This document shows positions 1-22,253 of a DNA stretch of 22,253 bases, in pieces. Under the pieces are notes generated by a model that did not search any database, was not told the DNA's origin, and worked only from the letters and a program-made list of their open reading frames with translations. The stretch lies in IMG/VR virus record IMGVR_UViG_3300025141_000859, positions 1 to 22,253 of that record, one strand, 5' to 3'. The position numbers and the translations under genes were made by a program. The stretch is from a virus. Numbering within the stretch: position 1 is the first letter of the stretch; each line of letters opens with the position of its first letter.

Positions 1-272
1 CTTTGCTCGTTGTGTCCTAGTGGACAACTTGGGTTTCTGTCTAACCATGCTTCAAATCCTCTAGCTCTACGTTCTGCTATTCTATTTGCGTCAACTTGTG
101 CGTCAGCTAATTTATCTAATGAATCGCCTATCCCTCGCATAAGTTCGGTTTGTACTCCTGATACTGTTTTACCGTTTTTTCCATTACCTTGCTTGTTCAT
201 CATATAAAGGATTACTAACACTCCCAAAACTGGAGCTTGGTTTAGTAAATTTAACAACATGTCAATTTCCAT
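1..272 (-). CDS. Membrane-anchored small phage protein, C-terminus beyond window
   Basis: Partial gene: it runs off the left edge after about 90 codons. The ATG at 272 has a good ribosome site (GAGGG, 8 bases upstream) and overlaps the 3' end of the spanin-like gene by 11 bases. The protein starts with a short acidic end, then a hydrophobic segment at about residues 6-25 (LLNLLNQAPVLGVLVILYMM). A Gly/Asn/Lys linker follows (NKQGNGKNGK), then a charged amphipathic helix with many Ala, Asp and Arg. The last visible stretch reads NPSCPLGHNEQ. I do not recognise the family. Its place after the holin and spanins suggests a role in lysis or at the membrane, and a second holin or antiholin is possible, but that is inference from context. 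Confidence 0.7.
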   Translation of the reverse strand, partial: MEIDMLLNLLNQAPVLGVLVILYMMNKQGNGKNGKTVSGVQTELMRGIGDSLDKLADAQVDANRIAERRARGFEAWLDRNPSCPLGHNEQ

Positions 273-675
273 CTAGTAGTCCCTCAATTGTATTTCTTAA
301 TAGGAAATTATTATTCTTACATGATTCTATATTCTTGTAGTTTGCTATAGCGTCTTTATTTTTCATGCAAACATACGGAACTTCAGGCTCTATGTCTTCT
401 GGAGCTACATATTCCACCTTCTCATACGTTGGAGGGGATGGAATTTCTAAATTTTTGATTGGATTAGTAAAATAGGAGCACGATGTAGCCATAAATAGCA
501 AAAAACTAAGGGTAAACATCGTATTTTTGATTTGAGGCCGCTTATGACCCCTTAAAATCGATATTCGGGGTCTTAGAGCCCAGAAAGAGGCAAAAAGCCC
601 AGACAATCTTAGCCTTTTCAGATATAGGAGGTGAAATAGGTCGTTTTTTAAGATATGCCTGAGCCAAGAAAACAT
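262..675 (-). CDS. Probable outer-membrane spanin (Rz1-like lipoprotein), start uncertain
   Basis: The last 85 residues look like an o-spanin. There is a hydrophobic signal (MFTLSFLLFMATSC) with a lipobox-like A-T-S-C at Cys66, then a Pro-rich stretch (about residues 77-100: IPSPPTYEKVEYVAPE). It follows directly after the inner-membrane spanin candidate, the usual order. O-spanins span the periplasm with the i-spanin and fuse inner and outer membranes at lysis. The start is a problem. The ATG at 675 overlaps the previous stop (TAATG) but has no good ribosome site, and it would add a 52-residue Arg-rich leader before the signal peptide. The ATG at 519 gives a normal lipoprotein length but also lacks a ribosome site and has no charged n-region. 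The short mature Cys-containing tail (two more Cys) fits only loosely with known spanins. Confidence 0.6.
   Translation of the reverse strand: MFSWLRHILKNDLFHLLYLKRLRLSGLFASFWALRPRISILRGHKRPQIKNTMFTLSFLLFMATSCSYFTNPIKNLEIPSPPTYEKVEYVAPEDIEPEVPYVCMKNKDAIANYKNIESCKNNNFLLRNTIEGLLDGN
546..572. other. Inverted repeat inside the long spanin leader
   Basis: GACCCC (546-551) is perfectly complementary to GGGGTC (567-572) around a 15-base loop. Within the loop AAT (556-558) and ATT (563-565) could add three pairs. It lies in the Arg-rich leader between the two spanin-like genes, 27 bases or more upstream of the alternative ATG at 519. There is no T-run on either strand, so it does not look like an intrinsic terminator. 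It might shape access to the downstream start, but a 6-bp stem can occur by chance. Confidence 0.3.
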
Positions 676-908
676 TAATTTTTATTTAAACGCCTTAAAA
701 GCTCTTTGCCAGTAGCTTGTTCTAGTTCAGCCACTTCTTCATTAAGCTCATTTTCTAATTTATTTTGTAGTTTTAAATTTGACTTCTCAATTCTAAGTTT
801 GTTCACTTCTCCTTTTAAATTATCTATACGTCTATTTTTCCACATAGACCATAATCCAAAAGCGACAAGTCCTAAAATTTTAGTTGCCAAACCTCTTAAC
901 CAATTCAT
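675..908 (-). CDS. Probable inner-membrane spanin (Rz-like)
   Basis: This 77-aa protein has one N-terminal membrane segment (about residues 5-23, ending GLWSMW), then a basic patch (KNRR) and an almost continuous charged coiled coil (residues 27-76, rich in Leu, Glu, Lys and Asn). That is the layout of an i-spanin: anchored in the inner membrane with a helical periplasmic domain that meets the outer-membrane lipoprotein. It lies 22 bases after the holin-like gene, and its stop overlaps the next ATG (TAATG). GGAGG sits about 11 bases before the ATG. It is shorter than lambda Rz, and a coiled-coil membrane protein of another kind cannot be excluded. The call rests on topology and position, not on a sequence signature. 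Confidence 0.6.
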   Translation of the reverse strand: MNWLRGLATKILGLVAFGLWSMWKNRRIDNLKGEVNKLRIEKSNLKLQNKLENELNEEVAELEQATGKELLRRLNKN

Positions 909-930
909 TATTAAGCGTATCCTCCCTTCA

Positions 931-1098: not shown

Positions 1099-1103
1099 AT
1101 AAA

Positions 1104-1110
1104 CCTCCTT
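1104..1110 (-). promoter_or_regulatory. Strong ribosome binding site of the holin-like gene
   Basis: AAGGAGG on the minus strand, 5 bases before the ATG at 1098, in the 27-base gap after the preceding stop. It supports the existence and start of the short holin-like gene. Confidence 0.75.
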
Positions 1111-1125
1111 ACTTCTTTTCTTTGA

Positions 1126-1737: not shown

Positions 1738-1749
1738 CTGACTATTATA

Positions 1750-4700
1750 CTACCTCCATTCGCTTGGGGCAAGTCCTTCTCTAATAGCTTGAATTTGTAT
1801 TTCTCTTGGCCATTTTTTAAATTGTTTCCTGGTCCATAATTTAGGGTAGAAATGCTTTAATTCTGCAAAAACATTTTCTCTAACCGCTGCAAGACTCTTT
1901 TTAAGCATTATCTTTTTCATATTATCGCTAGGTAGGTCCTTGTATCTTGCACCTTCTACGAGTCTATTTAGCATAGGAACATGTTGTGAAATTCTTTCTG
2001 CTGCTCTATCGTCCCATTCTGGAATACCGGTTCTCGGAATAATCTCTTTTAATTGAAAATGAAGTCTATCTACTTCGTATTCTATAGGTGTTTTAGGTTC
2101 ATATAAAGATAATCCCAATACTTGTTTAGATAGATTCCATTTTCTTTCCATCATTTTTCCTTTAAGACCTGTTCCCCATTTCGGCCTCCTTAATTCTTCA
2201 ACCTGATGTTTGATTTTTTGTGATATACTAGGCTCAAACCATGGAATATCGGGAGAGAACAATTCGTATTTATGGTAATCAGGCCAATCCTCCCGTGGCA
2301 ATGTCCTAGGAAGAGGCACTTTAGAGAGAACTCCACCTATTGGTTTACCCATCGACCTAGACATATAGTTAAAATCGCTAGCTACATCTTCCATGGCATC
2401 ATGTATTGCTGTATCTTTAAGTACATCTCCTACTCCAAAAGGCATATGCGTAACTAATTCATCTGATGCCGCAAGAAAATCACCAACCATATTCAATGTC
2501 TGCAAAGGTCTTCCTGCTATATCCCCCAAGGCTACGCCTAAGTTGTTTGTTACCTTTCCCATTCTGTGTTCCGATATATCTGTGAAAAGGTCAAATGCCC
2601 ATGTCGGTAAGTTCTTAGCTCTTGCTTCGATACCTGTAAAGGCTTTCATGCCCTCTTTGAAAGTTAGACCCAGAGGGGCTCCTGTCTGATGAGAGTTTAT
2701 TAGATGGTAAAGTAAGAACCAGCCTGTCATTGGAGTGAAAGGTTTTAAATCCAGAGCCCTAGGCCCCTTATCTGTATCAATAACTAACTCATTGTATTTT
2801 CCCTTACCGTAAGCTTTGTATAAACCACCAACAGTTGCTAATATTCCAAGACTGGTCATTGCTTCAATTAAAGGCTCCGTGTCTCCTTTGACATATTTTG
2901 TAACAGCATTTTCGTCATGTAATCGTACCAAGTTAAGCATTTTTATTGGATTGTATTTAGCTAGAATTCTGAATGTATTATATAAAAATCTTGGAAATGG
3001 TATTAAGCTTGTAAAGGCAAAAGGTATTGGCCCACTCTCAATTTGTCTTTGGAAAAAGCTTATCATCCTTCCATTAAATGAATCTTTAACAGGCGTAACA
3101 CTAAATGTTGATTCAGCAGCAACTGTTAAAGACTCTGCGAGTGTGTCCAATATTACTTTATCGTCTTTCAATCTCATCATTTGTTCAACGCTATGGCCTC
3201 TTTTTGCAGCCTGCTTGACAAACTCATCAAAGAAAACAAACCTTCTAATCGAATAATCAGCTTGAGCATTTAAAATATTGAGGAATCTAGCAACACTTCT
3301 TATACTTCCTGCTATATCTTTAGTTCCCACAAAAAATGGTGAAGCTTGATGACTAGCTTGGTTCAGAACATTATAATCTGAAGATATAATACGCATTTCA
3401 TCGGCTATTGTCTTATGTGTAGCTGAAAGCCATTCATAAAATTGAGATACATTTGCTATATCTTTTGATGCCCATAGGTCTACCTCTCCATTAAATAATT
3501 TAGTCTCTTGGTTGTAAATGCCTTTTAGATTAATGCCCTTGTCTTTTAGAAGATTATGGTCTTTACGATTTAAATCATGAAGTGGAATCCTCCTTCTTAC
3601 TAGGGCCCCTGATGCTGCACCTACTTCTTTGTTGAAATAATGATTTAATCCTTCTGGTGAATACATAAGAAGATTCCATCTCTGCAAATAAGGTCTTACT
3701 AAATCCAAGAAGCTACCAGAAAAGCTTTCCTTATTTAGATATTCTTCCATTTTTCCTGGTGGAAAGAACTTCTTGAGTATAAAATTATCTGGATATTTCA
3801 TCTGAGCATTTTTCAACATATGGGTATAGCCAAAAGCAAAAATCTCCCCTATGTTCCTCATACTGATTTGAAATCCTGATTGTAAGACATTTCTTAAAGT
3901 AGTTGCAAACTGTCCAAGCAGCATGGCAACAGTCGACCGGTCGACAGTATTTAAGAATTGCCTTCCCCCTTGTTCAGTTAGAGTAGGATAATGCTGAAAC
4001 ATATATTTATAAACGTCTTCTTCGTCAAGCCAGTTTTGTAATCCATATTTATCTTTTATGTCTTTTTCTATCGTTTTCATATAAACATCTAATTGTTTCT
4101 GCTTCCTCTCTGGTTCTGTAACAGTTTTGAGCCAGTTTTTATATCCCAGTTTGGTAGCTTCTTCTATTGTAAATTGTTCTCTAGTTAGACTAGGATTTAG
4201 TTTTACTGCATCATCGTAGAACCCCTTACTTCCTCCCCTAATTTTAGCCGTCATACTCAATGCACTACCAGCTGTAGACGTATAAGTCTCAAACGCCATC
4301 CCCATCTCAACCGGGTCTGACTTCTCAATTCCAACTTTTTTCAATCCAGTATGTAACTGCTTTAGGATTGGGTCTGTAGTCTTATCAGCAATAATTAGCA
4401 ATCGTTTTACAGCTTGACTAACTGTTAGGACCTTATCATTAAGGGCAGTAATTATCGGGTTTCCAGCAGCTGGTGTCCCTGCCTCCACCAACTCTTGTTG
4501 TAATCTCTTACTCGAAGCTGAGTCACTATGAATAAGGAAACTCATAAGTCCGATAAATTCATCGTTCTGAAAATATTCACCATACTTCCGCTGTATTTGG
4601 GCAGAGAGTTCCGCACTTACTTTTTTATCCCAATGTTTTTCCAGCAGATGGACTAATTGTTTATTAAATCCCAAGGTATCAAATTCTTCCTTACTTATTA

Positions 4701-7700
4701 ACTCTTTTATTTGTGCTAGATTTTCGTTCGTGGTACTAGTAATCCTCATAATCTCTTTGTTATTCATTTTAATTGGAAGAACTTCTCCATCTTTATATGT
4801 CTTAGCAAAATCTTTTATCTGTTGTACTATTTCAGGATTCAGTCTTATAAAACTTTCTACTCTCCTTTTCTCTGCCGAGCTGCGATAAGAAGTAACGAAC
4901 TCCCCCGTATCTCTAAAGTAATTTACCGGGAATACTGATTCGACTCTCGTTATTCCCAGGGATGCCCATTGTTCTGCTGCAGTTCCTCTTTTTATTCCTG
5001 TTTCCGCTAGCGTTGCGAGATAACGAAATTGATTAGCCACATTAGCTAGGCCTTCTACAAAAACCTGAGCCTCACTCATATTTTTATATGCTGGTTGACT
5101 TGCTTCTTCTTTGAATAAGAGTAGGTCATAAAGACCCTGCTCCTTGCCTGAACCTCTTCTTGTTAATATCCTTTTTTTATTTTTCAGCACCTGTGTTGAA
5201 GATACCGCAGTATCTTCTAACGACTGAGTTTTGAATTTATCCATTAAATATACAAATTCTGTAAACGCATTAACATCGTCTGCGTCAATACGAAACACCC
5301 AATTCCTATCTGCGTTTTGTTTCCAGCCAGAGAGCAAGGTAGTAGTTCCCTCTTCATCAACACTCTTTCTTAAATCCTTAAATAAACGGCGTATGAGAAA
5401 AGCTTCTCCATTCGTATGCTTCTTTGCTCGCATCCATTGTAAGAGCGGTTTTTGAATATCATCACTTTCTGTCAAAATAGTTCGTATATTTGTAGGCTGC
5501 CTAAGTATATCATCAGCTACATTTTGGGGATATTTCGACATAAGTCTTCCAAAATCATGCAATTTACCAAGGACTGAAAACAGATAGTTTGACATCTGAC
5601 TATGCAAAAAAGCTTGATTAGGGGTATCACTTTGAAGAATATGTCTTTTCCAAAAATAAGTGGCAAACGCTCGTTGAAATTCTGCACTTACAGGTTCTCC
5701 TTTTGAGGTTTTTGGAGTAACATGTTTCCATGACACTCCCCAGTCTCCCCTCCCAGAAGTTCTCGCTGATACCAATGTCATAACCTCCGCTGGATTCACG
5801 CCTTTATTTGCTTTCAGAAATCTTGTAACAGCAGAAATCCAAGGGTCAACGGCATCATAAAAGACGGCAGCCTCTCCCCTTTCAACTCCTCTAAGAGGAC
5901 TATGGACACCTGGTGTAAGGATTTCACCCTGATGTTGCTCTCGCCAAACATCCCTAGGCTCCATATATTTCCCTGTTCCTTCCACTACTTTAGGTCCTGC
6001 ATCCATCTGATATCTAGCTTTAACTCTATCGTAAGTTTCTACGTTTCTTCTCATTATAGTTAGTTGTTCTTTAAGTTTGTTATATTGGTTTGTAAAAAGT
6101 TTTTTTCTTTGAGAATCAGTTAACTGTGACCATCTCTTCTTCCTCTCTATTTTAACTTTATTTAAAAAGTCTCTTCTAGGAATAGTTGGTCCTATAAAAT
6201 CTTCGCCATATTGTCCATGCTGTTTTACAAATCTTTCAATATGCTTTTCTAATATAGGTATTGCCCTTCCAGCCTTTTCTCTCCATGCTTCACGCTCCGC
6301 CAGCTGCTCCCCGGTAAGCCTTTCCCATGTCCATCTCCGATTAGCAGCTACATCTTTTAATTGAAAGTCACGTCCTTCTTCTCTTGCAAATTCCATTACG
6401 GAAGGCAAACTCATATCCGTAGACTCCTTAGAACGAGCAGTTTTTTGCCACATTGCCTCCCGGCCCTCTTTGAACACTTTGGGATTAAATCCTGCTCCTT
6501 CATAATATAAACCCGCTTCTCCTTCTTTTCCTTTCCCAAGTGTTAAACGATGTTTTTTTACAAGTGCATCTAAAGCTTCATCAACTGATATTCCTCCTTT
6601 TTTCATAAGCTCATCAAAGTCTTCTAAAAATTGAGAAATATATGTATGTGGGTTTTTTTGTTTAGCAATAGGACTTTTACTAGCAAGATTGAACTCTTCA
6701 AATAGAGCTACGATACCTCTATATCTATTAACAGCTCGTTGGGCTGCCTCCTTAACCTCTGCTTCTGTTACTGGGTTACTTTTACCTAACAATTTATTCC
6801 ATACACGTTGTCCTTTTAGTTCTTTAGAGACTTCTGCTAAGAAGCCATGATATCCATTATCTTTAGCTCTGTCGGCCACTCTTAGTGCTATTGCAGTTGC
6901 AAGAAAGTCTGGCATGAATAGTGGCCTATTTGGGTCAAAGAGCCGACCTGCTCTAGTTAAAAGAGGATTTCTAAGATAATTTGTTACTAACTCATTTATA
7001 CCTGGAGAGATAATCTTTGTCTCAGGATTAAACCAGTCAGTTGACTTAATGTTTGTCTTGGCTGTAGCAGCGTGTATAGCTTTCCACAGCTCATTTATAT
7101 CTATCTGTCGTCCTTTAGGGACCATGCGATTAAACAATGTAACTAGAGCACTTAAAACAGAAGGGGATGTATAAAAATCACTCACTGCAGTTTCTAGTGG
7201 TACACGCCTGCCAGTAGCTTGAAATACCTGCTCGGCAAGCAGTTTAGGGTCTCTAGTCAGTCTTAAGGTTCCATCATCAAGTACAGATATAAGTTTATTA
7301 GCCGCTTCTTCATTCGCTTTAAAAGCAAAGGTCTTATCGCTCCGTCCTAATGCACCAAGACTAGGGTCTGGTATCCACTTTGGATGAGTATGGTCATATA
7401 ATCGCCGGTTTAACTCTTCTAGTAATTTCTTTTTTCTTGGACTATCTGGAAGGTTTTTTTCAATTCTCTTAATTTTCTCACTTATTATAGCTCTTTCTCT
7501 GCCCAACGCTTTGCTTACCTGCTGGACTGGAGCTTCACCTACTGTAGTTTTTGCGGTTCCTTTTCCAACAAGAGCGTTCCAACCTATTTTCTCTACACCT
7601 TTTGTGAATCCGAGAGAAGCTCCCTTAAATAGAGTTTCCATGACAACCCAACTACCTATTGATGCAACATAGTCATACAAATCAGGCTCTTCTTGGTCGT

Positions 7701-8139
7701 CCATTACCATGCCCCTAATAAAAGTACCTGATGCACCCAAATAGGCAGACCTTTGAAGTATGTTCTTAATTGTAAAATACATCCCAGGTACTCTAGTAAA
7801 ACCTAAAACACCTCCTACGAGAGGATTTGCAACAAAACCTAGTGCAATAAGTGCCATATCAATTCCAAGATGAGGAAGCCATTCTGGTATTTCCAATGGG
7901 TCAGAGTCTATAGGAATACCTGCTGGTACTATTGCTGTGTCTTTGACATTTACTGGTGTAACAGTTTGAAAATCTTCTACAGTTGGTTTGTCAGATGATA
8001 TGTCTACGGCAGAATCATCGAGCAATTTTTTTAATTTTAGTGTAGTTGAAACCTCTTTGTCATTTACTGGTGTAATACCAGCACCTGTAATATCTACAGG
8101 GTCAAGCTCTACAAAATCTTTAGAAAGTCGTGCTGACAT
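1750..8139 (-). CDS. Giant 2129-aa virion-associated protein, possible DNA-ejection protein
   Basis: One uninterrupted frame of 2129 codons. After an acidic, Pro/Thr-rich start (residues 1-90) come hydrophobic, Gly-rich segments at about 91-115 and 158-178. Most of the rest is charged helix. A helical region near residue 1411 contains TTLRNVLQSGFQISMRN. Hydrophobic stretches recur around 1700-1800 (for example MTSLGILATVGGLYKAYG), followed by a basic C-terminus. Size, helical content and position beside Gly-rich and Gln-rich proteins recall large internal or ejection proteins such as T7 gp16. The later half also recalls large polyvalent proteins of phages (LPD38-type regions), but I cannot confirm this. 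I saw no lysozyme/transglycosylase signature and no T7-type RNA polymerase motif set. The start at 8139 is 4 bases after the previous stop, with only a weak GAG ribosome site. Confidence 0.75.
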   Translation of the reverse strand: MSARLSKDFVELDPVDITGAGITPVNDKEVSTTLKLKKLLDDSAVDISSDKPTVEDFQTVTPVNVKDTAIVPAGIPIDSDPLEIPEWLPHLGIDMALIALGFVANPLVGGVLGFTRVPGMYFTIKNILQRSAYLGASGTFIRGMVMDDQEEPDLYDYVASIGSWVVMETLFKGASLGFTKGVEKIGWNALVGKGTAKTTVGEAPVQQVSKALGRERAIISEKIKRIEKNLPDSPRKKKLLEELNRRLYDHTHPKWIPDPSLGALGRSDKTFAFKANEEAANKLISVLDDGTLRLTRDPKLLAEQVFQATGRRVPLETAVSDFYTSPSVLSALVTLFNRMVPKGRQIDINELWKAIHAATAKTNIKSTDWFNPETKIISPGINELVTNYLRNPLLTRAGRLFDPNRPLFMPDFLATAIALRVADRAKDNGYHGFLAEVSKELKGQRVWNKLLGKSNPVTEAEVKEAAQRAVNRYRGIVALFEEFNLASKSPIAKQKNPHTYISQFLEDFDELMKKGGISVDEALDALVKKHRLTLGKGKEGEAGLYYEGAGFNPKVFKEGREAMWQKTARSKESTDMSLPSVMEFAREEGRDFQLKDVAANRRWTWERLTGEQLAEREAWREKAGRAIPILEKHIERFVKQHGQYGEDFIGPTIPRRDFLNKVKIERKKRWSQLTDSQRKKLFTNQYNKLKEQLTIMRRNVETYDRVKARYQMDAGPKVVEGTGKYMEPRDVWREQHQGEILTPGVHSPLRGVERGEAAVFYDAVDPWISAVTRFLKANKGVNPAEVMTLVSARTSGRGDWGVSWKHVTPKTSKGEPVSAEFQRAFATYFWKRHILQSDTPNQAFLHSQMSNYLFSVLGKLHDFGRLMSKYPQNVADDILRQPTNIRTILTESDDIQKPLLQWMRAKKHTNGEAFLIRRLFKDLRKSVDEEGTTTLLSGWKQNADRNWVFRIDADDVNAFTEFVYLMDKFKTQSLEDTAVSSTQVLKNKKRILTRRGSGKEQGLYDLLLFKEEASQPAYKNMSEAQVFVEGLANVANQFRYLATLAETGIKRGTAAEQWASLGITRVESVFPVNYFRDTGEFVTSYRSSAEKRRVESFIRLNPEIVQQIKDFAKTYKDGEVLPIKMNNKEIMRITSTTNENLAQIKELISKEEFDTLGFNKQLVHLLEKHWDKKVSAELSAQIQRKYGEYFQNDEFIGLMSFLIHSDSASSKRLQQELVEAGTPAAGNPIITALNDKVLTVSQAVKRLLIIADKTTDPILKQLHTGLKKVGIEKSDPVEMGMAFETYTSTAGSALSMTAKIRGGSKGFYDDAVKLNPSLTREQFTIEEATKLGYKNWLKTVTEPERKQKQLDVYMKTIEKDIKDKYGLQNWLDEEDVYKYMFQHYPTLTEQGGRQFLNTVDRSTVAMLLGQFATTLRNVLQSGFQISMRNIGEIFAFGYTHMLKNAQMKYPDNFILKKFFPPGKMEEYLNKESFSGSFLDLVRPYLQRWNLLMYSPEGLNHYFNKEVGAASGALVRRRIPLHDLNRKDHNLLKDKGINLKGIYNQETKLFNGEVDLWASKDIANVSQFYEWLSATHKTIADEMRIISSDYNVLNQASHQASPFFVGTKDIAGSIRSVARFLNILNAQADYSIRRFVFFDEFVKQAAKRGHSVEQMMRLKDDKVILDTLAESLTVAAESTFSVTPVKDSFNGRMISFFQRQIESGPIPFAFTSLIPFPRFLYNTFRILAKYNPIKMLNLVRLHDENAVTKYVKGDTEPLIEAMTSLGILATVGGLYKAYGKGKYNELVIDTDKGPRALDLKPFTPMTGWFLLYHLINSHQTGAPLGLTFKEGMKAFTGIEARAKNLPTWAFDLFTDISEHRMGKVTNNLGVALGDIAGRPLQTLNMVGDFLAASDELVTHMPFGVGDVLKDTAIHDAMEDVASDFNYMSRSMGKPIGGVLSKVPLPRTLPREDWPDYHKYELFSPDIPWFEPSISQKIKHQVEELRRPKWGTGLKGKMMERKWNLSKQVLGLSLYEPKTPIEYEVDRLHFQLKEIIPRTGIPEWDDRAAERISQHVPMLNRLVEGARYKDLPSDNMKKIMLKKSLAAVRENVFAELKHFYPKLWTRKQFKKWPREIQIQAIREGLAPSEWR

Positions 8140-12153: not shown

Positions 12154-13649
12154 TTTCCTCCTCTAGGTTCAGCATATATCGTATATCCACTAACGGTAAA
12201 GGGAGTACCAGTACCTGTGTCAGTTACTTTTAAATTTATATACCGCCCTGTATTAGTATTATGTGTTCTTTTAATACCTACAGCATTAGCATCATTGGCC
12301 ACAGTTTGAGCGGTATCGTAAGTTGCAGCAGTATGAATCATTTCTGTTGCACCTACTTGAACGCTAGGTGTTTGTTCGACTTCTAGTTCGACTCTTCGAA
12401 CAGTTTTACGAAGATTTTGCATTTGCTGCTCTTTAAAATTAAACAACTTTGTTCTTAATGTTGCTGATACAGCTACTCCATCATCTGTATTACCAGAAAA
12501 AGCTTCATAAAACTCACCATTTCCACCAAAATAGGATTCAGGTGTATTAACTGTTTGATTATGTACTTGCACACTATATAGACTTCTACCAAATGTATGT
12601 TTAGTCCAAGCGTTGTATAGATAATTAAAACAATAGGCAGCATCGCATGTAGTCGAATCACCACTAGGATAAATAATCCAACATTCAAATCGGTGAGGTA
12701 TGGTCTTTACATACAACTTTTCTCTATATTGATAATTTAAATCATCAAAAAAATCCTTTTTAATCCTATCTCCAATAGGCGGAGAATCAAAACTAGCACC
12801 ATCAAATAAATAGATATTATCCTGGCTAACAACTAAATGCACTTTGTCAAGTATCCCTACTCCTTTTGGGGATATCGTACCTCTATCTGACATCACAAGT
12901 CTCGGTACGAAATAGTTAGGACTACCCGTATATGTCATTGTATAAATAGCCCCTTGTTTGTAGACAGCAACGGCTTCTCTCAATGGGTGCATACACATTA
13001 CTTTAGAATTAGTTGCATCTTCAATTAAATTCAGGTAGCCTGCGGATTCTAGTGCTGAATCATTCCAATCTGTGGGGTCACTAACTTCTGACCATCGTAC
13101 CCGATAAGGAAAAGTGCTTCCATCTTCTGTAACATTACCTAGAATTAAATGCCCTCTATATCCTAACAAACTTTTACCCAATAAAGTAGTAAAACCACTT
13201 GACAAAGTTAAATTAGTCCAGTTTCCAGAACCTGACCATTGTTTAATTGCATCTTTACCATTGCTTATATATAAATAATCAGTTGACATACCACCGACTG
13301 GAGACATAAATATGGGAAAAGCATCTGTTCCTGTTAAAGTCGTACCTCCATACCTTGTAGTAAAGGTAGTGCTTCCATCCCATTCAATTAGTCCATTAGA
13401 AGTACAAAAAACTAAATGATTAGCAGCACTAGAATCTCCATACTCCACACCTTCCATTATTGGATAATTATTTACAGCCGAAACATCGCCTTGTTCAGCA
13501 AACCCTAATCTTTTTTTAATAGAGCCATCTGACATAATGACATTTGTCAACTCTGGTGAAAACAATTCTGGAAGTATAGTCTCAGGTTGGGATGTATTTA
13601 TACCCTGTATAGGTGCTGGCAATGTTAATTCTATTGGATATCTAGGCAT
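12150..13649 (-). CDS. Propeller-like virion structural protein, 499 aa
   Basis: Starts MPRYPIELTLPAPIQGINTS. The early region (PELTNVIMSDGSIKKRLGF) resembles the start of phage virion proteins often found in podovirus tails, where an N-terminal 'loads of positions, each with a DGS and a K/R-R-x-G' pattern leads into beta-propeller blades. The rest is beta-rich and repetitive, with recurring W-x-G, YLYISNGKDAIKQW and DNIYLFDGASF segments consistent with blades. The C-terminus is a beta domain (VRRVELEVEQ ... GYTIYAEPRGGK). The TAA of the preceding gene is directly followed by this ATG. Probably a tail or adaptor component of the virion. The function is inferred from pattern and neighbours. 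Confidence 0.65.
   Translation of the reverse strand: MPRYPIELTLPAPIQGINTSQPETILPELFSPELTNVIMSDGSIKKRLGFAEQGDVSAVNNYPIMEGVEYGDSSAANHLVFCTSNGLIEWDGSTTFTTRYGGTTLTGTDAFPIFMSPVGGMSTDYLYISNGKDAIKQWSGSGNWTNLTLSSGFTTLLGKSLLGYRGHLILGNVTEDGSTFPYRVRWSEVSDPTDWNDSALESAGYLNLIEDATNSKVMCMHPLREAVAVYKQGAIYTMTYTGSPNYFVPRLVMSDRGTISPKGVGILDKVHLVVSQDNIYLFDGASFDSPPIGDRIKKDFFDDLNYQYREKLYVKTIPHRFECWIIYPSGDSTTCDAAYCFNYLYNAWTKHTFGRSLYSVQVHNQTVNTPESYFGGNGEFYEAFSGNTDDGVAVSATLRTKLFNFKEQQMQNLRKTVRRVELEVEQTPSVQVGATEMIHTAATYDTAQTVANDANAVGIKRTHNTNTGRYINLKVTDTGTGTPFTVSGYTIYAEPRGGK
12157..12162 (-). promoter_or_regulatory. Ribosome binding site for the 39-aa gene
   Basis: AGGAGG (within GAGGAGG) on the minus strand, 3 bases before the ATG triplet's AAA spacer and inside the end of the preceding 499-aa gene. 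It is the main evidence that the 39-aa frame is translated. Confidence 0.65.
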
Positions 13650-14369
13650 TTATGTTGTCTTCCTCCATGTTGTATCATCCGGGCTGTCGTCTGTTGTCCA
13701 AGTAGTCGTACTAGGAGAACTGTCCGTAATATATGGTATCATAACTTTTGGAATTTCGCATATTAGCTCTACTTCTACACCTAAAGGCTCTAAAGTTACA
13801 TCTGATATACTTAGTTTAGCAACTGCAGTTCCAAAAGCTAAAGTATCTGATATTCCAGTAGCACCAACTTGCAATTGAACAGTCGTAGTTCCTATAGCCA
13901 AAGTGCTAGCTATCCCTACTCCAGTTAAGTAGCCTCCAAGATTCGCAGTACCGAAAGCAAGAGTGCTAGCAACACCTGTTGCCCGAACCTGACTTTCAAG
14001 TTTAGCGGTACCAAATGCTAATGTACTTGCAAGACCTGTCCCTGTAAGAATACCGCCAAGATTTGCAGTACCAAACGCTACTCCACTTGCAAGGCCTGTA
14101 CCATTAATTTGAAGTTGAACACCTGTAGTACCTATAGCTAAAGTGCTAGCTATCCCTACAGTATTGGCTTGAAGTTGAGCCTTACTTGTTCCAAAAGCAA
14201 CACTACTTGGTATTCCAGTATTACTAACTTGAAGTTGAACGGCCGCAGTACCGATAGCCGTTGTTGCAGCTACAGCAGAAGGGCTAATAGTTTGTGAATC
14301 AGGCAGTATTAGGTCAATATGGCCCGCTGATTGCCAAAAACTATGTCCAGCAAAACTTCCTAATGCCAT
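13650..14369 (-). CDS. Virion protein of eight 20-residue repeats, 239 aa
   Basis: Residues 1-31 form a head (MALGSFAGHSFWQSAGHIDL). Residues 32-191 are eight repeats of exactly 20 residues, with consensus G-I/L-A-S-T-L-A-F/I-G-T followed by a variable ten (VQLQVxxT, NLGGxLTGT or similar). This looks like a beta-solenoid or beta-strand stack. A connecting domain follows (VTLEPLGVEVELICEIPKV), then a C-terminus with two copies of a DDSP-x-T-T-W-like motif (DSSPSTTTWTTDDSPDDTTW). Similar GIASxxAFGT repeats are known in phage tail and decoration proteins. The ATG overlaps the previous TAA. It is likely a surface tail or fibre-associated protein. No enzymatic motif is seen. Confidence 0.7.
   Translation of the reverse strand: MALGSFAGHSFWQSAGHIDLILPDSQTISPSAVAATTAIGTAAVQLQVSNTGIPSSVAFGTSKAQLQANTVGIASTLAIGTTGVQLQINGTGLASGVAFGTANLGGILTGTGLASTLAFGTAKLESQVRATGVASTLAFGTANLGGYLTGVGIASTLAIGTTTVQLQVGATGISDTLAFGTAVAKLSISDVTLEPLGVEVELICEIPKVMIPYITDSSPSTTTWTTDDSPDDTTWRKTT
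13797..14276 (-). repeat. Eight tandem 60-bp (20-codon) coding repeats
   Basis: The 60-bp period is seen in both the protein and the DNA. The variable halves of repeats 3 to 7 run VQLQ, NLGG, KLES, NLGG, VQLQ, so repeats 3 and 7 resemble each other, as do 4 and 6. This mirrored order suggests growth by duplication of multi-repeat blocks or selection for an alternating surface. Confidence 0.8.
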
Positions 14370-14698: not shown

Positions 14699-14883
14699 TA
14701 GTCTACCTCCGTTATTGTATTACCAGCTGCTACCCATTGCATAACCATTTTATAATGTCTATTGTTTGGAACATCTGGCACAAAATGCTCTTTGCCATCT
14801 TCATACGTAATTTTATAATTAATTATTTGTTCATCTGTTGGCAATCCCTTTGGTAAATATAATTTTTCTACTTTTTCAATCAT
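14698..14883 (-). CDS. Small conserved-type phage protein, 61 aa
   Basis: Starts at the ATG at 14883 (MIEKVEKLYLPKGLPTDEQI), overlapping the fibre stop as ATGA. A longer frame from a GTG at 14898 is less likely. The C-terminal part (VPNNRHYKMVMQWVAAGNTI) follows a pattern common in small phage proteins next to tail fibres: a VP...N(R/D) turn, a short helix with a central W and a final AGN turn. The role is unknown. The position suggests fibre assembly or a small structural part. Confidence 0.6.
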   Translation of the reverse strand: MIEKVEKLYLPKGLPTDEQIINYKITYEDGKEHFVPDVPNNRHYKMVMQWVAAGNTITEVD

Positions 14884-16052
14884 AACTCTGCATCCCACTC
14901 CATATAATCACTAGAACTATTGCCTTGTATATATCCTGCGTCATTACTAATACTTACGGCAGTCAACATCAGCATGCAATAAGTTCTATCTGCATAAGTT
15001 CCACTATAGGTTACTGTAGTATCTATGCCACTATAATCTCGAAATCTTAATCCACTATATCCAAATGTCGGTTTCTCTCTCATGGTAACAGGTAATGGAA
15101 TAGGAATTTCGGCAGTTGTTGCTCCCGTTCTAATACCAGTTCCAAAAACATTATAAGTTGAATCAGCACAGTTGTGCATTTGATAATATCTTTGACATTT
15201 ACGCAAGGTAACCCCATATTCTTCATGAACAAAATCAGTAGCAGAACTTCCAATTTCAACTTGTATTCCTGTAATTTCATACCAATCATCTGCTCCAGCA
15301 GTTCCAGTAGGAGTTGCTATTATTTGAAAAACTAATTGATTAGAATCTGTTGGAACAACACTTCCACTTGTAAATTCATATCTTACCCAACTTGTTGTTA
15401 TTGCTTGGTTAACAGCTCCAATTACTGCAACAGAACCAGTTAATCCTGCCATTAATGTTTGGTCAGTTCCAGTTCCAGAATATAAGGCTACACTAATATA
15501 AGAACTTGTTGGAGAAAAATTTGCTCCTGCTTTTGCCCAAAAACTTAAAGTTACTGTTTCTCCAGCAGCGCCAACACTTGCATCACTTGCACATGGTTGA
15601 GAAAAATATGTTCCTGCTGTGCCAGTATCCCCATTATCTCTTGCAATTTTTATACTATGTTTAAATCCTGTTGGAGCATCAGTTACTTGTGATATTGTCC
15701 TATTCGCAGCTCCAAATATATATGTATAAAATCTGTCTAATAAATATTCTTGGTTTCCCCCCGTTGTTGAAGTTCCTCTTTGTGCAACTTCCATTGCTCC
15801 ATTGATTATAAAATTATGACTTGTGTTTCCACCAACTGTTGTACTACCACCTAAAGATATTGCACTTCCATTAATTGTAATAGCAGAATTTGCTAATTTG
15901 TCATTAGCTATACTTCCTGCTAATTTGTCATTAGCTATACTTCCAGCAAGTTTTCCATTGGAAATTGTTGTATCAGCAATCTTATCATTAGTTACTGCTG
16001 CGTTTTGTATATCATCTGTTCCAATATTTTTTACACTATCTGCAACTGCCAT
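14880..16052 (-). CDS. Tail fibre / receptor-binding protein with nine-residue repeats, 390 aa
   Basis: Begins MAVADSVKNIGTDDIQNAAV. Residues 30-56 carry LAGSIANDK twice, then LANSAIT and SAISLGGSTT, a trimerising fibre-shaft style seen in many phages. From about residue 78 a globular domain starts (HNFIINGAMEVAQRGTST, then LLDRFYTYIFGA). Together with a later Ser/Gly/Thr-rich beta section (ETVTLSFWAKAGANF, then GIQVEIGSSATDFVHEEYG), it resembles carbohydrate-binding modules in phage fibres. The last 110 residues hold RKCQRYYQMHN and a C-terminal beta domain. AAGGAG sits 5-6 bases before the ATG. It is probably a receptor-binding fibre. Confidence 0.75.
   Translation of the reverse strand: MAVADSVKNIGTDDIQNAAVTNDKIADTTISNGKLAGSIANDKLAGSIANDKLANSAITINGSAISLGGSTTVGGNTSHNFIINGAMEVAQRGTSTTGGNQEYLLDRFYTYIFGAANRTISQVTDAPTGFKHSIKIARDNGDTGTAGTYFSQPCASDASVGAAGETVTLSFWAKAGANFSPTSSYISVALYSGTGTDQTLMAGLTGSVAVIGAVNQAITTSWVRYEFTSGSVVPTDSNQLVFQIIATPTGTAGADDWYEITGIQVEIGSSATDFVHEEYGVTLRKCQRYYQMHNCADSTYNVFGTGIRTGATTAEIPIPLPVTMREKPTFGYSGLRFRDYSGIDTTVTYSGTYADRTYCMLMLTAVSISNDAGYIQGNSSSDYMEWDAEL
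15892..15972 (-). repeat. Tandem 27-bp repeats in fibre gene
   Basis: Two copies (15892-15918 and 15919-15945) differ at one base and encode LAGSIANDK each. A third, degenerate unit (15946-15972) precedes them in reading order. Nearly identical DNA copies point to recent duplication, a likely site of length variation between relatives. Confidence 0.85.
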
Positions 16053-16055: not shown

Positions 16056-16346
16056 TTACTCCTTTGGATATTTCTCCTTAACTGCTGTAATAACTTCTTT
16101 CCAAGAATCTATGCCATTATGATATATCATGTCTAATTGTTCTGATACTGATGGATACTCTGACATTCTTTTTGCTTTGTATGTCATTTTAGTTTCGTGT
16201 TGCCCCCAACATTGTTCTATTTCTTGCCATGTTGGTTTATCTCTTTCGTCTTCCCATCTTAAATTGTCGTAACTTTCTTCATCTTCTGGAAACCCACCAT
16301 AATTAGCATTGGGTACAAGGTAATCTAAAATTAAAGAAATATCCAT
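16056..16346 (-). CDS. Small acidic phage protein, probable tail/fibre accessory, 96 aa
   Basis: The ATG at 16346 overlaps the previous stop (TAATG) with GGAAGG upstream. It starts MDISLILDYLVPNANYGGFP. A 15-base longer frame exists but lacks this coupling. The middle is charged with Trp (DKPTWQEIEQCWGQ), and the C-terminus reads EYPSVSEQLDMIYHNGIDSW followed by a helical end. This YPS...EQLD.(I/L)(Y/W)H pattern is frequent in small proteins of marine phages next to fibre genes. The role is not established; fibre assembly is a fair guess. Confidence 0.65.
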   Translation of the reverse strand: MDISLILDYLVPNANYGGFPEDEESYDNLRWEDERDKPTWQEIEQCWGQHETKMTYKAKRMSEYPSVSEQLDMIYHNGIDSWKEVITAVKEKYPKE

Positions 16347-16834
16347 TATGCTACCTTCCATATTGCTACAGATGTGTATTGTTCTGTAACGCTAAAATTT
16401 GTTTCTATTCCTAACCCTTGAGTAGCCATTGTTGTTTCTACTTGATATTGTAATTCACAAGCAGCACTTCCACTTAATACAAAATAACCATTCAACCAAT
16501 TTGGAGCTGAATTGTAATCTGTCTCTAAGTAGTTACTTCCACCTATAACTAACACAGCAGTATTTGTTGTATCATAGAATTGTAATTTATTTCTTGCACA
16601 ATGATAAAACCATTGCCATGCTCTTATACAATAAGTTCCTGCTGGTAATGTAATTTGATTAGTGCTTAAACTAGCCCCAGATATATTGTTTTTTTTACTT
16701 GTGTTTATTACAAGTGTTCTCCAAGCCCCAGATGTAGCACTTCCACCAGCAGTATTAGCAGCTTGGTCATTTGTCATTAATAAATCTTCGTTTTCAAATG
16801 CTCCACCAACTGCTATGTTTCCTTGTATTGGCAT
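16346..16834 (-). CDS. Jelly-roll (C1q/TNF-like) adhesin domain protein, 162 aa
   Basis: It opens with a short region (MPIQGNIAVGGAFENEDLLM). Alternating strands follow, such as SLSTNQITLPAGTYCIRAWQ, KLQFYDTTNTAVLVIGGSNY and GYFVLSGSAACELQYQVETT, and it ends EQYTSVAIWKVA. This order is typical of C1q/TNF-like jelly-roll tips of phage fibres, which bind host surface molecules as trimers. Here it is a stand-alone gene rather than the end of a long fibre. It may be a tip protein that joins the following fibre. AAGGTG precedes the ATG by 4-5 bases. Confidence 0.65.
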   Translation of the reverse strand: MPIQGNIAVGGAFENEDLLMTNDQAANTAGGSATSGAWRTLVINTSKKNNISGASLSTNQITLPAGTYCIRAWQWFYHCARNKLQFYDTTNTAVLVIGGSNYLETDYNSAPNWLNGYFVLSGSAACELQYQVETTMATQGLGIETNFSVTEQYTSVAIWKVA

Positions 16835-17658: not shown

Positions 17659-17789
17659 TATTTATTCACCTTTTGGCGTTTTCTATCCCATTTACGCTTA
17701 AAAAACCCTAAATCTTCGTAAAAAACAGGTCTTTTTTGTGGTTTTTGTACTTTTTTGCGTTGATTTTTAGCTTTTGTTGTTTTTTTCAT
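17658..17789 (-). CDS. 43-aa Lys/Arg-rich protein after the tape measure gene
   Basis: Read directly from the sequence. ATG at 17789, overlapping the tape measure stop (TAATG); TAA at 17660-17658, overlapping the next start. The product is very basic, with Lys/Arg making up about 40 percent of residues. It begins MKKTTKAKNQRKKVQKPQKR and ends PVFYEDLGFFKRKWDRKRQK plus VNK. GGAG lies about 8 bases before the ATG. Perfect coupling at both ends supports translation. It could bind nucleic acid or an acidic partner in the tail, but no family is recognised. Confidence 0.65.
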   Translation of the reverse strand: MKKTTKAKNQRKKVQKPQKRPVFYEDLGFFKRKWDRKRQKVNK

Positions 17790-20164
17790 TATCTAGTCTC
17801 CTGAAATGCCAATGAAGTAGTAGAGCCATCTTGTCCTAAACTATTTAATGCTGGTAATATTTTTTCTTGTGCAAGAGCAACCCAAAACTCTATTGGCTTA
17901 TCCATGAGAGCTTGGTCTATATTGGCATGTGGTAATATGTTTAATTGTTCTATTGCTTGTACACCCCCACCTTTTAGGTTAACAGGCACTTGTCCATTTT
18001 GCATTGGTATAACAGCTTCTTGTCTTTGTGGATTGTCTCCTATCATAGCAAATGTAGGTCTTCTTACAATTCCACCACCAGCAAAAGAAGGAACATTTAA
18101 ACCACCCCTAAAGACTCCACCTTTAGCTGCTGATGTTCCACCTTTTAAAAATGTATCTGCTAATTTTTTACCTAAATCAGATAGATTTTTTATTTCTGAA
18201 GTATCTACGCCCATACCAGCTAAACTTCTAATAATCATCATTTGTATCGCTAGTTTAATTAAAGCTGTTATCATTTCTTTAGCAAAACTTTTGAATACTT
18301 TTTTCATTGATGCCCCAAAGTTTTCTCCGTCCATTATTGCACTACCAAATGCTTTTGCCGAAGCATCTACAAAATTACCAAACACAGATTTTATCCCTTT
18401 TTGTAGTTCTCTAAATGTAGTTTCGTATGCAAATAACCAAGTGTTTGCAAAAGTAATAGCTTCTTCTTGTGCATTATGAACACCTAATCGGTTAGATTCT
18501 GCTGCAAAAGTAGCTAATCCTACTATTGACTCTTTTGTTGTTGCTAGGGCTTCTTGTTGTTCTTGGGTCATGCCGTCAAATTCTTCTTTTGTAATAGCTC
18601 TAAGATGTTTTACTTCTTCTCCAGCTAGTTCATAACCCATTATTAGTTCATTTTTAGCATTTTGGTCAATAAATTGTTCAAAGAAACTACCTTCTTGTCT
18701 GTTTATATCTGCTAATTTTTTTTGGTCTTTTGCTAACGCTGCAATAGCTTCTTTACCTTTATCTACACCTCTAACTATATCTTGCATGTTAGCTCCAGTT
18801 TCTTTACTAATTGACCCTAATAGCTCTATTGTTTTTACTAGCTCTTGTCCTTTAGCTGTATCACTAAACATCATTGAAAGCGAATCTAGTTCACTTAATA
18901 ACGGGTCTAATCTTGCTGCTTCATAAAGAGCAAGTGGGTCTAGAAATTCATTAAGAACTCGTTTACCTACTGCAGTTAAACTGTAAAATCTATCTTCTAA
19001 AGTGTTATAAATTGATTCTACTTCTTGTACAGTTTGCCCAACTTGTTGTGCTATTGTATCAAAGGTTGCCATTCTTTCATTTAGTTTTCTTTGTTCAAAA
19101 TCAGCTCCCGATATTGCTGCTCCTATTCTAGCAAAGAAATCGCCTACATTAAGTTTTATTAAATCTATAAATAATTGATAAGCAAAACTTAACGGAATCA
19201 ATACTGCGCTAATTGCTCCAGTTAATATTTGAATTACTAAAGCAATACCTCTAAAAGCAACAGTAATTAAATCTTTAAACATTTGTAAGTCTCCAGCAGT
19301 AGCAGTAAACGCTAAAAGTTCTGTTTTAATTAAGTTGTAACCTTGCGATAGTGTTACAGATGTTTTTTTAAATTTAGTATTAATATTTGCTGTTTCTTTT
19401 AACAACGCATTTAAAATTAGTCTAGGTTTTAAAAACCCTTCAGAAGCTAATTTTTTAAGTTCTTCTCTAGTTCTTCCTGTTTCTTTTGCAAGAATATCTA
19501 AAATCGGTGGCAATGTTTCTGAAATAGCTCTAAATTCATCACCTTGCAACCTACCAGATTGAAAACCTTGCGACAACTGCAACAGGATAGAACGAGCTTC
19601 GTGGGCTTGAACACCTTGTATTGTCATTAATTTGTTTAGGTTTTCTGTTACTTGTGCTACTTGCTCGGAACTCGCCCCTAATCTGTTAGAAGCAAAAGTC
19701 AACCTTTGGTACATTGTTATTGTTCCGTCTAAGTCTCCCCTTGTTTCTCTAGCAACTCCAACCATAGCTGACATACGATTTTTTAAATCAGTAGTTGAAG
19801 TTGATACAACTCGTAATTTGTTAGTTAACTGCTGGGCTTGGTTTACTAACTGAACTACTTCAGATATTATTTTTGCCCCAATTAAAGCTCCAAAACCTGC
19901 CGATAAAGTACGAGCCATGCCACGCAGATTACCAAACGCTTTACCTATACCACCAAGTCTTGTTTGAAAATTAACAAAACTTGAAGATACTTTTCTAGTT
20001 TCTTTTTGTGTTTTATTTAATCGAGAAGCAAATTCCTGAGTTCCTTCGGTGGCTTTTTGTGTAGTATTGCCATATTTGCTAATTACATTAGCCCCTTTAC
20101 CAAACTCATTGAGACCTTTGGTTACATATTCTAATATGACTTTAAATTTATCTGATGTTGCCAT
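17789..20164 (-). CDS. Tail tape measure protein, 791 aa
   Basis: It sets tail length by acting as a ruler inside the tube during assembly. Residues 1-75 form a short helical start. About residues 85-262 match the N-terminal tape-measure domain pattern (TIGR02675 type): LTNKLRVVSTSTTDLKNRMS, NLNKLMTIQGVQAHEARSIL, LSQGFQSGRLQGDEFRAISE and a KLASEGFLKPRLIL helix. A hydrophobic section follows (residues 298-335) and long helical stretches. The C-terminus is a Gly-rich tail-tip end (SFAGGGIVRRPTFAMIGDNP, EAVIPMQNGQVPVNLKGGG). By the usual ~0.15 nm per residue, 791 aa suggests a tail of about 120 nm (inference). It overlaps the preceding chaperone ORF by 17 bases; AGGAAG lies about 10 bases upstream. 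Confidence 0.9.
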   Translation of the reverse strand: MATSDKFKVILEYVTKGLNEFGKGANVISKYGNTTQKATEGTQEFASRLNKTQKETRKVSSSFVNFQTRLGGIGKAFGNLRGMARTLSAGFGALIGAKIISEVVQLVNQAQQLTNKLRVVSTSTTDLKNRMSAMVGVARETRGDLDGTITMYQRLTFASNRLGASSEQVAQVTENLNKLMTIQGVQAHEARSILLQLSQGFQSGRLQGDEFRAISETLPPILDILAKETGRTREELKKLASEGFLKPRLILNALLKETANINTKFKKTSVTLSQGYNLIKTELLAFTATAGDLQMFKDLITVAFRGIALVIQILTGAISAVLIPLSFAYQLFIDLIKLNVGDFFARIGAAISGADFEQRKLNERMATFDTIAQQVGQTVQEVESIYNTLEDRFYSLTAVGKRVLNEFLDPLALYEAARLDPLLSELDSLSMMFSDTAKGQELVKTIELLGSISKETGANMQDIVRGVDKGKEAIAALAKDQKKLADINRQEGSFFEQFIDQNAKNELIMGYELAGEEVKHLRAITKEEFDGMTQEQQEALATTKESIVGLATFAAESNRLGVHNAQEEAITFANTWLFAYETTFRELQKGIKSVFGNFVDASAKAFGSAIMDGENFGASMKKVFKSFAKEMITALIKLAIQMMIIRSLAGMGVDTSEIKNLSDLGKKLADTFLKGGTSAAKGGVFRGGLNVPSFAGGGIVRRPTFAMIGDNPQRQEAVIPMQNGQVPVNLKGGGVQAIEQLNILPHANIDQALMDKPIEFWVALAQEKILPALNSLGQDGSTTSLAFQETR

Positions 20165-20575: not shown

Positions 20576-20595
20576 AGAAACTCCTTATATATATT

Positions 20596-21561
20596 TTAAT
20601 AACTAGCAGCAGTATTTTGCAAAGTTACTCTTATTGCATAGCTACTTGTTGTATCGTATTGTGCTTGACCTTCGTAAGAAGCTGTTATTCGACCAGCTCC
20701 AGCAATCGGATATTCAAATGTATTATATCTAACATCTGGCATATCTAAAACTAATTGATTTATATCAGCAGCTGCTCCAACAGTTGCTCCTGTTACTGTA
20801 AATTTAAACGATTGTACTGTCTGGGCTCTAAATGCTCCTTCTTGTGCTTGTGTGTCAAACGACTGGTCTCCAGCAACCATTGTTGTTCTAAATCCATTTC
20901 TTAGCAATTTACCTTCGTTGGTTGAAGCATTAAGTACAGATATGCCTTCAATACCATTGTCTATTGTTATTGTTGCTGATTCAAATTCACCATTGGCACT
21001 TCCACCAACTTGTAAAGAAACCTGATTCCATGTAAATGGGTCAGCAGCAATGTAACTTGGAGTTGCTTTTGCAGATTTTGCATAAGCTCTACCATGAACT
21101 GTTGCAGTACATCTAATTATAGACCCAGCAGTAATTTCTATTGCTAAAGCTGAAATCACACCATCTGTGATTTGATAAGCACTACCTACGCTTTTCCACA
21201 TACTTATAGTATATGGAGCTAACGCACAGTCTTCGCTGAAGTCCGTTTGTCTTGGTAAAAACTCATGTAAATATGAAGATGTTTGTAATGTTGATGTAAC
21301 AGTTTTATTCAATGCACTTCTTAAAAATTCACCCAGATATATAGGGTGTGGCTCAAATACAATATCGCCTGTTACATTATTTACGCCTTCTACGCTATTT
21401 GGAGCATCAAAGACACTCCTTAAATTTTCTATTTGAATTACATTTTTGTTTTCAGTTAAAGATTCCGATACAAAAGGAATATACTGTGGACTGCTACTTA
21501 CTGGAGTCCCAAAAGTTGTTTGTTTTTCTAAACTTAAATATCCACCTAGTCCGTATCCCAT
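20596..21561 (-). CDS. Major tail tube protein, 321 aa
   Basis: It forms the inner tube of the tail by stacking rings. The start MGYGLGGYLSLEKQTTFGTP followed by SSSPQYIPFVSESLTENKNV and EGVNNVTGDIVFEPHPIYLG is a strong match to the pattern of siphovirus tube proteins. The rest alternates beta strands and loops (EITAGSIIRCTATVHGRAYA, GEFESATITIDNGIEGIS, QSFKFTVTGATVGA), as in the tube fold. It is larger than a minimal tube protein (about 200 aa), so an added C-terminal Ig-like or decoration region is possible. The ATG overlaps the previous TAA, with GAGG upstream. Twenty bases separate it from the chaperone gene. Confidence 0.8.
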   Translation of the reverse strand: MGYGLGGYLSLEKQTTFGTPVSSSPQYIPFVSESLTENKNVIQIENLRSVFDAPNSVEGVNNVTGDIVFEPHPIYLGEFLRSALNKTVTSTLQTSSYLHEFLPRQTDFSEDCALAPYTISMWKSVGSAYQITDGVISALAIEITAGSIIRCTATVHGRAYAKSAKATPSYIAADPFTWNQVSLQVGGSANGEFESATITIDNGIEGISVLNASTNEGKLLRNGFRTTMVAGDQSFDTQAQEGAFRAQTVQSFKFTVTGATVGAAADINQLVLDMPDVRYNTFEYPIAGAGRITASYEGQAQYDTTSSYAIRVTLQNTAASY

Positions 21562-21743
21562 TATTCTATTACCTCTTTTGAAGATTTATCTTCTTTAGTA
21601 TTTTGCCTGATTTTTACTTCTTTGGCAATTTTTTCATTAATTAAACTTGTACCTACTTCATCGGGCACTTCTGCTTGTTTGCCTTCTTGTGTAACTCCTA
21701 ACCCAGTAATTTCTAATCCACTAACTAGCCATTTAATAAACAT
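21561..21743 (-). CDS. Small protein between tail terminator and tube, 60 aa
   Basis: The ATG at 21743 overlaps the previous TAA (TAATG) with GAGG about 10 bases upstream, so I prefer it to a longer TTG frame from 21761. It begins MFIKWLVSGLEITGLGVTQE, followed by GKQAEVPDEVGTSLINEKIA and a charged, Lys/Glu-rich end. Short proteins with a beta start and a 'v...G...eVpd.....li....A' middle are often found at this position in tail operons. The function is unknown, perhaps structural. The coupling suggests co-translation with the tail terminator. Confidence 0.6.
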   Translation of the reverse strand: MFIKWLVSGLEITGLGVTQEGKQAEVPDEVGTSLINEKIAKEVKIRQNTKEDKSSKEVIE

Positions 21744-22198
21744 TACTCTTTTACCTCGCAATCTATATTTAGGGATACGCCCTTAAAGAAACCCAAGCCA
21801 TTTTCGTTACGCATATTATCAAATTTACCTGATGTAAACTTATAATACAAGACGTTCCCACCTAAAGTTTTATTGTCTTTTAATACTTCTTTAACTTTAC
21901 CAAGAGCAGTATCTCTTAAAGTAGCCCCATCAAGATTTTCCATAGAAAATTCATATATCCATATTTCAATCGCAAGAAGTGTTAAGTATGGTTTTGCTCC
22001 ACCTATTGTTTCAGTATCTTCAAGTGTTTCGTAACTATCTAAAAATATACCTATATACGGACATCGTGGCTCAGAAACAAAATCAGAATCTTCAACAACT
22101 ATTGTTGTTGTTCTGCCGTTTATAGTAGTTGTCCTTGCATCATTTTCCAATATTGTTTTAATTCCGTTTTCTATTCCAATATAATCTATAATTGCCAT
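21743..22198 (-). CDS. Tail terminator / tail completion-like protein, 151 aa
   Basis: Starts MAIIDYIGIENGIKTILEND. It has the order of tail terminator proteins (lambda gpU / SPP1 gp17 type): an N-terminal helix, a beta hairpin (PYIGIFLDSYETLED), a strand with small hydrophobic residues (KPYLTLLAIEIWIYEFS), a helix (LRDTALGKVKEVLKDN) and a final strand (GFFKGVSLNIDCEVKE). Such proteins form a ring that caps the tail tube and joins it to the head. Its place just before the tail tube gene agrees. GGAGAAGG lies about 5 bases before the ATG, which overlaps the previous TAA. The call rests on position and pattern; sequence identity to a known one is not established. Confidence 0.65.
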   Translation of the reverse strand: MAIIDYIGIENGIKTILENDARTTTINGRTTTIVVEDSDFVSEPRCPYIGIFLDSYETLEDTETIGGAKPYLTLLAIEIWIYEFSMENLDGATLRDTALGKVKEVLKDNKTLGGNVLYYKFTSGKFDNMRNENGLGFFKGVSLNIDCEVKE

Positions 22199-22253
22199 TA
22201 CCTTCTCCGTATCCTTGCTTTTGGTGATTTATTTTTTTTAAATGCTTTCTTGT
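22198..22253 (-). CDS. C-terminus of an upstream connector-type gene (partial)
   Basis: Only the last 17 codons are present; the 5' part lies beyond the right edge. The visible end reads KKAFKKNKSPKARIRRR and stops at TAA (22200-22198), which overlaps the next ATG. The order in siphoviruses puts a head-tail connector (HK97 gp10-like) or minor tail protein with a basic tail here, but 17 residues do not allow a call. Confidence 0.6.
   Translation of the reverse strand, partial: KKAFKKNKSPKARIRRR

Follow-up and report, generated by a model that had tools for sequence, protein, structure and literature searches.

The stretch of DNA analysed here, called the window throughout, is the entire IMG/VR record IMGVR_UViG_3300025141_000859 (G000). 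It is 22,253 bp long, about 60% of the length of the 36-38 kb contigs of its relatives, and has a G+C content of 37.5%. Nearly all of its genes are on the minus strand, and together they form the tail module of a tailed phage. Annotated phage records contain no match to the window at the DNA level and none to its minor tail protein at the protein level. The virus is probably an uncultured, marine bacterial virus; we take the contigs to be of marine origin from their terminase relatives and from the metagenome names. The subject of this analysis is the tetranucleotide GATC, which the window lacks altogether, and the fate of this site in related and unrelated phages. Site figures are written as observed/expected.

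GATC avoidance in the window

A preliminary description of the window, made from its letters, had claimed that 22 kb contained no GATC where several dozen sites were to be expected. The exact count is 0, against 48.5 sites expected under a Markov model from the observed counts of GAT, ATC and AT. A codon-shuffle null, which keeps the proteins and the pooled codon usage and permutes synonymous codons, gives 51.6 ± 5.1 sites, with a minimum of 39 in 300 shuffles (z = -10.1). The absence therefore holds under both kinds of model that the description had proposed, as run on the window. GATC is zero in coding and non-coding DNA alike, and it is avoided in all three reading phases. Before a codon starting with C, Asp is encoded by GAC in 36 cases and by GAT in none, as the description had noticed for some of these pairs; the figures in other contexts are 87 GAC and 246 GAT (26% GAC). 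Ile following a codon that ends in G uses ATC in 0 of 55 cases, compared with 29 of 380 elsewhere. A Ser that follows a Gly or Arg codon ending in -GA is never TCN and is AGY 21 times; after Gly and Arg codons with other endings, TCN (22) and AGY (21) are used about equally.

The loss is specific to the word and is not driven by composition. Controls of the same composition are near expectation (CTAG 83/87, AGCT 140/142, GTAC 56/69), and CATG is also ordinary. The earlier contrast between GATC and other palindromes is right for AGCT, CATG and GTAC, but needs a correction for GCGC, which occurs and yet is strongly depleted (2 versus 18.2 under the codon shuffle, z -4.2). Under the same null, ACGT is moderately depleted (19 versus 35.3), and CGCG stands at 0 versus 5.6. 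GANTC is normal (60/56). A site is called eliminated here if observed/expected is below 0.1 with more than 15 sites expected, and GATC in the window falls in this class. It is the sole well-powered total loss in the window, though other sites are avoided too.

Table 1. Features of the window
Feature	Position	Strand	Basis
GATC-free stretch, 0 sites vs ~50 expected	1..22253	.	count
2129-aa (amino acid) protein of unknown family	1750..8139	-	no family match
GNAT-type acetyltransferase	10127..10720	-	PF00583 E 4.5e-9; phrog_3810 E 2.4e-10
Segment shared with IMG/VR contig L001 at 99.8% identity	11661..15834	.	alignment; mosaic junction
Virion structural protein (phrog_3287)	12150..13649	-	E 7.7e-51
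Minor tail protein-like	13650..14369	-	phrog_13352 E 6.8e-12
Tail fibre protein	14880..16052	-	phrog_4492 E 2.4e-38
Tail fibre-like protein	16346..16834	-	phrog_24210 E 7.1e-20
Tail length tape measure protein	17789..20164	-	phrog_339 E 9.2e-62
Minor tail protein (phrog_290), query for relatives	20596..21561	-	E 2.8e-34

The largest protein has no Pfam or PHROG match at E<=0.001, no PDB sequence match and no relative in IMG/VR. A 4.2-kb distal tail segment is shared with L001, and the remaining 3.4 kb of that contig is unlike the window. The junction reflects either a recent module exchange or a chimeric contig. GATC in L001 is 0/17.

Loss and return of GATC in the lineage

GATC elimination in the window is real, very strong and lineage-wide. 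A search with the minor tail protein returned 55 viral relatives at 40-75% identity, most of them with zero GATC, and a portal alignment built from the larger relatives finds 78 loci. The window has no portal gene and is placed in the lineage by its tail protein alone. GATC is exactly zero in 50 of 57 minor-tail loci and in 39 of 59 portal loci, some of which overlap or are near copies. Portal proteins are 56-62% identical within the close clade. In 21 contigs picked for their GATC poverty (466,517 bases), 7 sites occur versus 1,248 expected, a figure that describes these contigs and not the clade average; their portal and tail proteins diverge by up to ~45%. The portal tree contains a 53-row clade with 99% support, made up of 39 GATC-free, 6 low and 8 GATC-present rows, and the whole tree requires about 12 changes of GATC state. 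Distant portal relatives (35-40% identity) are mostly GATC-normal; exceptions include L166 (0/34).

The 36.5 kb of G004 hold a single GATC, at G004:12943 (in L067), where there is no open reading frame (ORF) of at least 90 aa. A lone site of this kind might record when the phage last met a GATC-cutting enzyme. The four sites of G013 all fall within 650 bases of its end (G013:30112-30592, the end of L076). At this very point G013 goes from 100% to 86-90% identity with its sister L121, and from ~70% to 97-99% with L126. This end is a recombination or assembly junction, perhaps derived from a GATC-bearing relative.

GATC has returned in a sub-lineage. Four members, L131, L132, L133 and L135, carry it at ~55-65% of expectation and nest inside the GATC-free clade with branch support up to 99%. 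Their sisters, at 82-90% nucleotide identity, hold no GATC. The full contig of L131 (L181, 18.7 kb) was aligned base by base with two sisters at 85-87% identity, and its GATC sites are common to L159 in 0 of 13 cases and to L121 in 0 of 20. For CTAG, AGCT, CATG and TGCA, roughly half of its sites recur in the sisters, and roughly half of its GATC sites differ from the sister sequence at a single base. Within the sub-lineage, L131 and L132 share 12 of 17 GATC sites. GGCC and ACGT remain absent in all four, so it was apparently the pressure on GATC alone that eased. With the exception of one small ORF, all genes of the 18.7-kb contig have homologues in GATC-free relatives; therefore, no new phage gene lies behind the re-emergence in the part covered.

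Other type II sites have been lost as well, and in most members these losses form genome-specific sets. G004 has GATC 1/81, CCWGG 0/25, GGNCC 0/30, GGCC 0/34 and GCGC 0/21, and has also lost CCNGG and CCGG. G003 has ACGT 0/25 and GGCC 1/18, together with loss of GCGC and GGATG, and G021 has GCWGC 2/26 and CCWGG 0/20, together with loss of GGCC and ACGT. In G019, GATC is present, yet CCGG, CGCG and GGWCC are lost. GANTC is at expectation throughout the clade. Over the loci counted, which overlap, elimination affects GATC in 102 of 139 testable cases, GGCC in 24 of 57 and ACGT in 13 of 67, and it affects TCGA, CATG and TGCA in none. More distant phages show a loss of CTAG (L166 0/28, L062 1/26, L145 0/18).

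GATC in other marine phages

Cultured phages served as controls. Staphylococcus phage K, the positive control, has GATC 0/112 and GGCC 0/13 in its first 50 kb. In T7, GATC is at 6/141 and no other four-base site is at zero. GATC counts are normal in CRP-1, a Roseobacter phage (164/192), and in Eoghan, a Bacillus phage (215/218).

Unexpectedly, total loss extends to cultured marine phages outside the clade. GATC is 0/150 in Pelagibacter phage HTVC104P and 0/156 in SAR116 phage HMO-2011 (L196), and it is zero in 9 of 13 sampled SAR11 phages (the sample includes L195, L201, L204, L209-L213 and L215). Two pelagiphages, HTVC109P and HTVC115P, are GATC-free and GANTC-normal. CATG is 0/24 in pelagiphage HTVC025P (L215). 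The pattern also holds in uncultured relatives, taken as the best 80 matches per query, which are close mutual relatives and not independent. All 80 IMG/VR relatives of the HTVC019P capsid (Pelagivirus contigs, L217-L296) are GATC-free, with 0/1,200 sites in total, and they have GGCC 2/223 and GCGC 6/547. Among the 80 relatives of the HMO-2011 terminase (L297-L376), 46 have zero GATC and 14 reach at least half of the expected number. A full-text search of the open-access literature found no report of GATC loss in pelagiphages. We tentatively suggest that an unannotated, GATC-directed, DNA-destroying defence may be common in abundant, streamlined bacteria of the sea, namely SAR11, SAR116 and the bacteria that this clade infects. 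Under its pressure, unrelated phage families, some with members that infect hosts described as restriction-free, may have lost all GATC independently of one another.

Host and phage-borne genes

Two routes to the host were tried. The first, by way of a prophage or a mis-binned contig, used minor-tail and portal alignments and gave nothing in 84,980 species genomes. The second, by way of cultured relatives, was rejected since the minor tail protein is unmatched and the listed terminase and portal matches are at most ~35% identical. By terminase, the best cultured relatives infect SAR11, SAR116 and Roseobacter-type Alphaproteobacteria (~33-35% identity). From these sequence similarities, a marine alphaproteobacterial host is a lead only. 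About half of the genes have a Shine-Dalgarno-like motif (controls 5-22%), which argues weakly against a Bacteroidota host.

GATC-positive G019 encodes a ParB-N6/N4 methylase fusion (L072:1023-2243) and a 221-aa C5-methylase-like protein with a partial domain (L072:4850-5515); G005 has a protein of the latter kind too. No adenine methylase was detected in G005 or in L131-L133 and L135, several of which are fragments, and GATC-free G032 carries a partial adenine-type methylase. Protection by a phage methyltransferase was considered as the reason for GATC-positive members and rejected: a full adenine-type methylase is found in G019 only, and none was detected in G005 or the L131 group, so that phage-borne protection is not the general reason.

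Genes of the MutH/Sau3AI and DpnII families are absent from 25 records, 16 of which are the window and clade contigs. A search for the DpnI family gave no signal even in its controls and carries no weight for the phage records. The PF00589 integrase is absent from 22 of 23 records, including all clade members, although other recombinases were not searched and the records may be fragments. The sole copy is in the outgroup G025, which is GATC-normal. The window lineage is apparently non-temperate.

Restriction as the probable cause, and its alternatives

The best explanation of the loss, with a probability of roughly 0.72, is that type II restriction at GATC in the host has exerted purifying selection over a long time. 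Complete or near-complete site elimination is found mainly in DNA phages that are non-temperate and exposed to type II systems of the orthodox kind, and in all 46 phages of hosts with a GATC type IIM enzyme, GATC is under expectation (Rusinov 2018, PMC6286503). The pattern here fits type II restriction acting on non-temperate phages, because the loss is near-total, the words are orthodox type II sites and no integrase was found. The GATC-targeting system put forward in the preliminary description thus remains the cause that fits best: the loss is specific to GATC, absolute, based on codon choice, clade-wide, joined by losses of other sites, and reversible. An apparently non-temperate tailed-phage lineage would long have infected hosts with a type II enzyme cutting GATC, which might be of the MboI/DpnII/Sau3AI type, or of the DpnI type if the sites become methylated. 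Destruction of GATC-bearing genomes would remove new sites and retain synonymous codons that avoid them. GATC would be the pressure common to most members, and further enzymes would add lineage-specific losses (GGCC, GCGC, ACGT, CCWGG, GGNCC and others). In a sub-lineage that no longer meets the GATC enzyme, sites would drift back and the other losses would persist. That a host endonuclease is the agent, and that the re-emergence follows from a change of host, is our inference.

Several points weigh against this explanation. No host, and hence no GATC enzyme, was found in the minor-tail and portal scans of the species genomes. The best terminase relatives infect marine Alphaproteobacteria, among which SAR11 is reported to be without restriction-modification (PMC9516812). 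In addition, phages of both kinds grow on the cultured host HTCC1062 (HTVC019P is GATC-free, HTVC010P and HTVC033P are GATC-normal), so that any enzyme acting on those phages would be in other natural hosts.

The main rival, which we consider unlikely, is counterselection by Dam and MutH, in which MutH nicks GATC sites that are unmethylated, or methylated on one strand only, in rapidly replicating phage DNA and no restriction enzyme is needed. It was proposed for enterobacteriophages (Deschavanne and Radman 1991, as discussed in PMC5014478), and the depletion of T7 in E. coli agrees with it. However, it predicts a loss of GATC only, and most relatives are also without GGCC, GCGC, ACGT, CCWGG or GGNCC; in the window itself GCGC is 2/18. 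The loss in the window lineage is also more complete than in T7, and the best cultured terminase relatives infect Alphaproteobacteria. As a rule, Alphaproteobacteria have neither MutH nor Dam.

A mutational process, or host proteins that bind or methylate GATC and interfere with phage DNA, could deplete the site without any nuclease. An orphan GATC methyltransferase reported in a Pelagibacter isolate (PMC12570018) speaks for this idea, but the idea is very unlikely given the zero count in coding and non-coding DNA, the normal CTAG and AGCT counts, the genome-specific type II losses and the ordinary site turnover in the GATC-positive sub-lineage (the 12 of 17 sites shared by L131 and L132). It is just as hard to credit that the phage encodes a nuclease specific for GATC with which it breaks down host DNA, and that it has cleared the site from its own genome to protect itself. 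A loss common to the lineage at GATC, beside variable losses elsewhere, would fit such a nuclease, and G004 does carry an HNH homing endonuclease; homing endonucleases are not known to cut four-base sites. The 25 records lack MutH/Sau3AI- and DpnII-family genes, and GATC re-emerged in L181 without gain of a gene in the part covered. A library or assembly artefact, such as GATC digestion before sequencing, has nothing in its favour and is refuted, because GATC-free and GATC-bearing contigs pair within the same metagenomes (L015 0/17 and L044 8/22 in 3300030389; L045 0/48 and L057 29/50 in 3300030330; L095 1/56 and L102 7/17 in 3300028925) and cultured phages are GATC-free too; nor can a library create codon choice.

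Under host restriction, site loss in phages is a readable record of the enzymes used by their hosts. The loss described here speaks for a defence that cuts GATC and acts across an entire uncultured lineage as well as on cultured SAR11 and SAR116 phages. If SAR11 were truly without restriction, its phages should retain GATC, GGCC and GCGC, and existing cultures allow this contradiction to be tested. Nested sister lineages with and without GATC provide a natural experiment on the decay rate of site avoidance.

Comparison with known systems

Elimination of restriction sites is a known phenomenon; here it occurs in a new uncultured lineage, together with a natural reversal and a pattern seen more widely in marine phages. 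Like the phages surveyed in PMC6286503, the window lineage shows near-total loss of a short type II site and no integrase was found. What sets it apart is that the loss extends to most of a lineage without cultured members and has been reversed in sub-lineages nested within it. Staphylococcus phage K and Twort-like phages are GATC-free, which has been ascribed to host restriction (PMC5618024). Complete absence of GATC is common to them and the window, but they belong to a different phage family with a known host, and the likeness implies no homology. T7, the example of the Dam/MutH counterselection proposed for enterobacteriophages (via PMC5014478), shares the strong depletion of GATC; its depletion, however, is not absolute (6/141) and comes without zeros at other four-base sites. 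A further parallel is GANTC depletion, which partitions the phylogeny of pelagiphages whose SAR11 hosts have no known restriction system (PMC9516812). Both are clade-level losses that affect a motif of four specified bases, and the marine phages concerned have no known restriction enzyme acting on them; the clade of the window, however, loses GATC and keeps GANTC normal.

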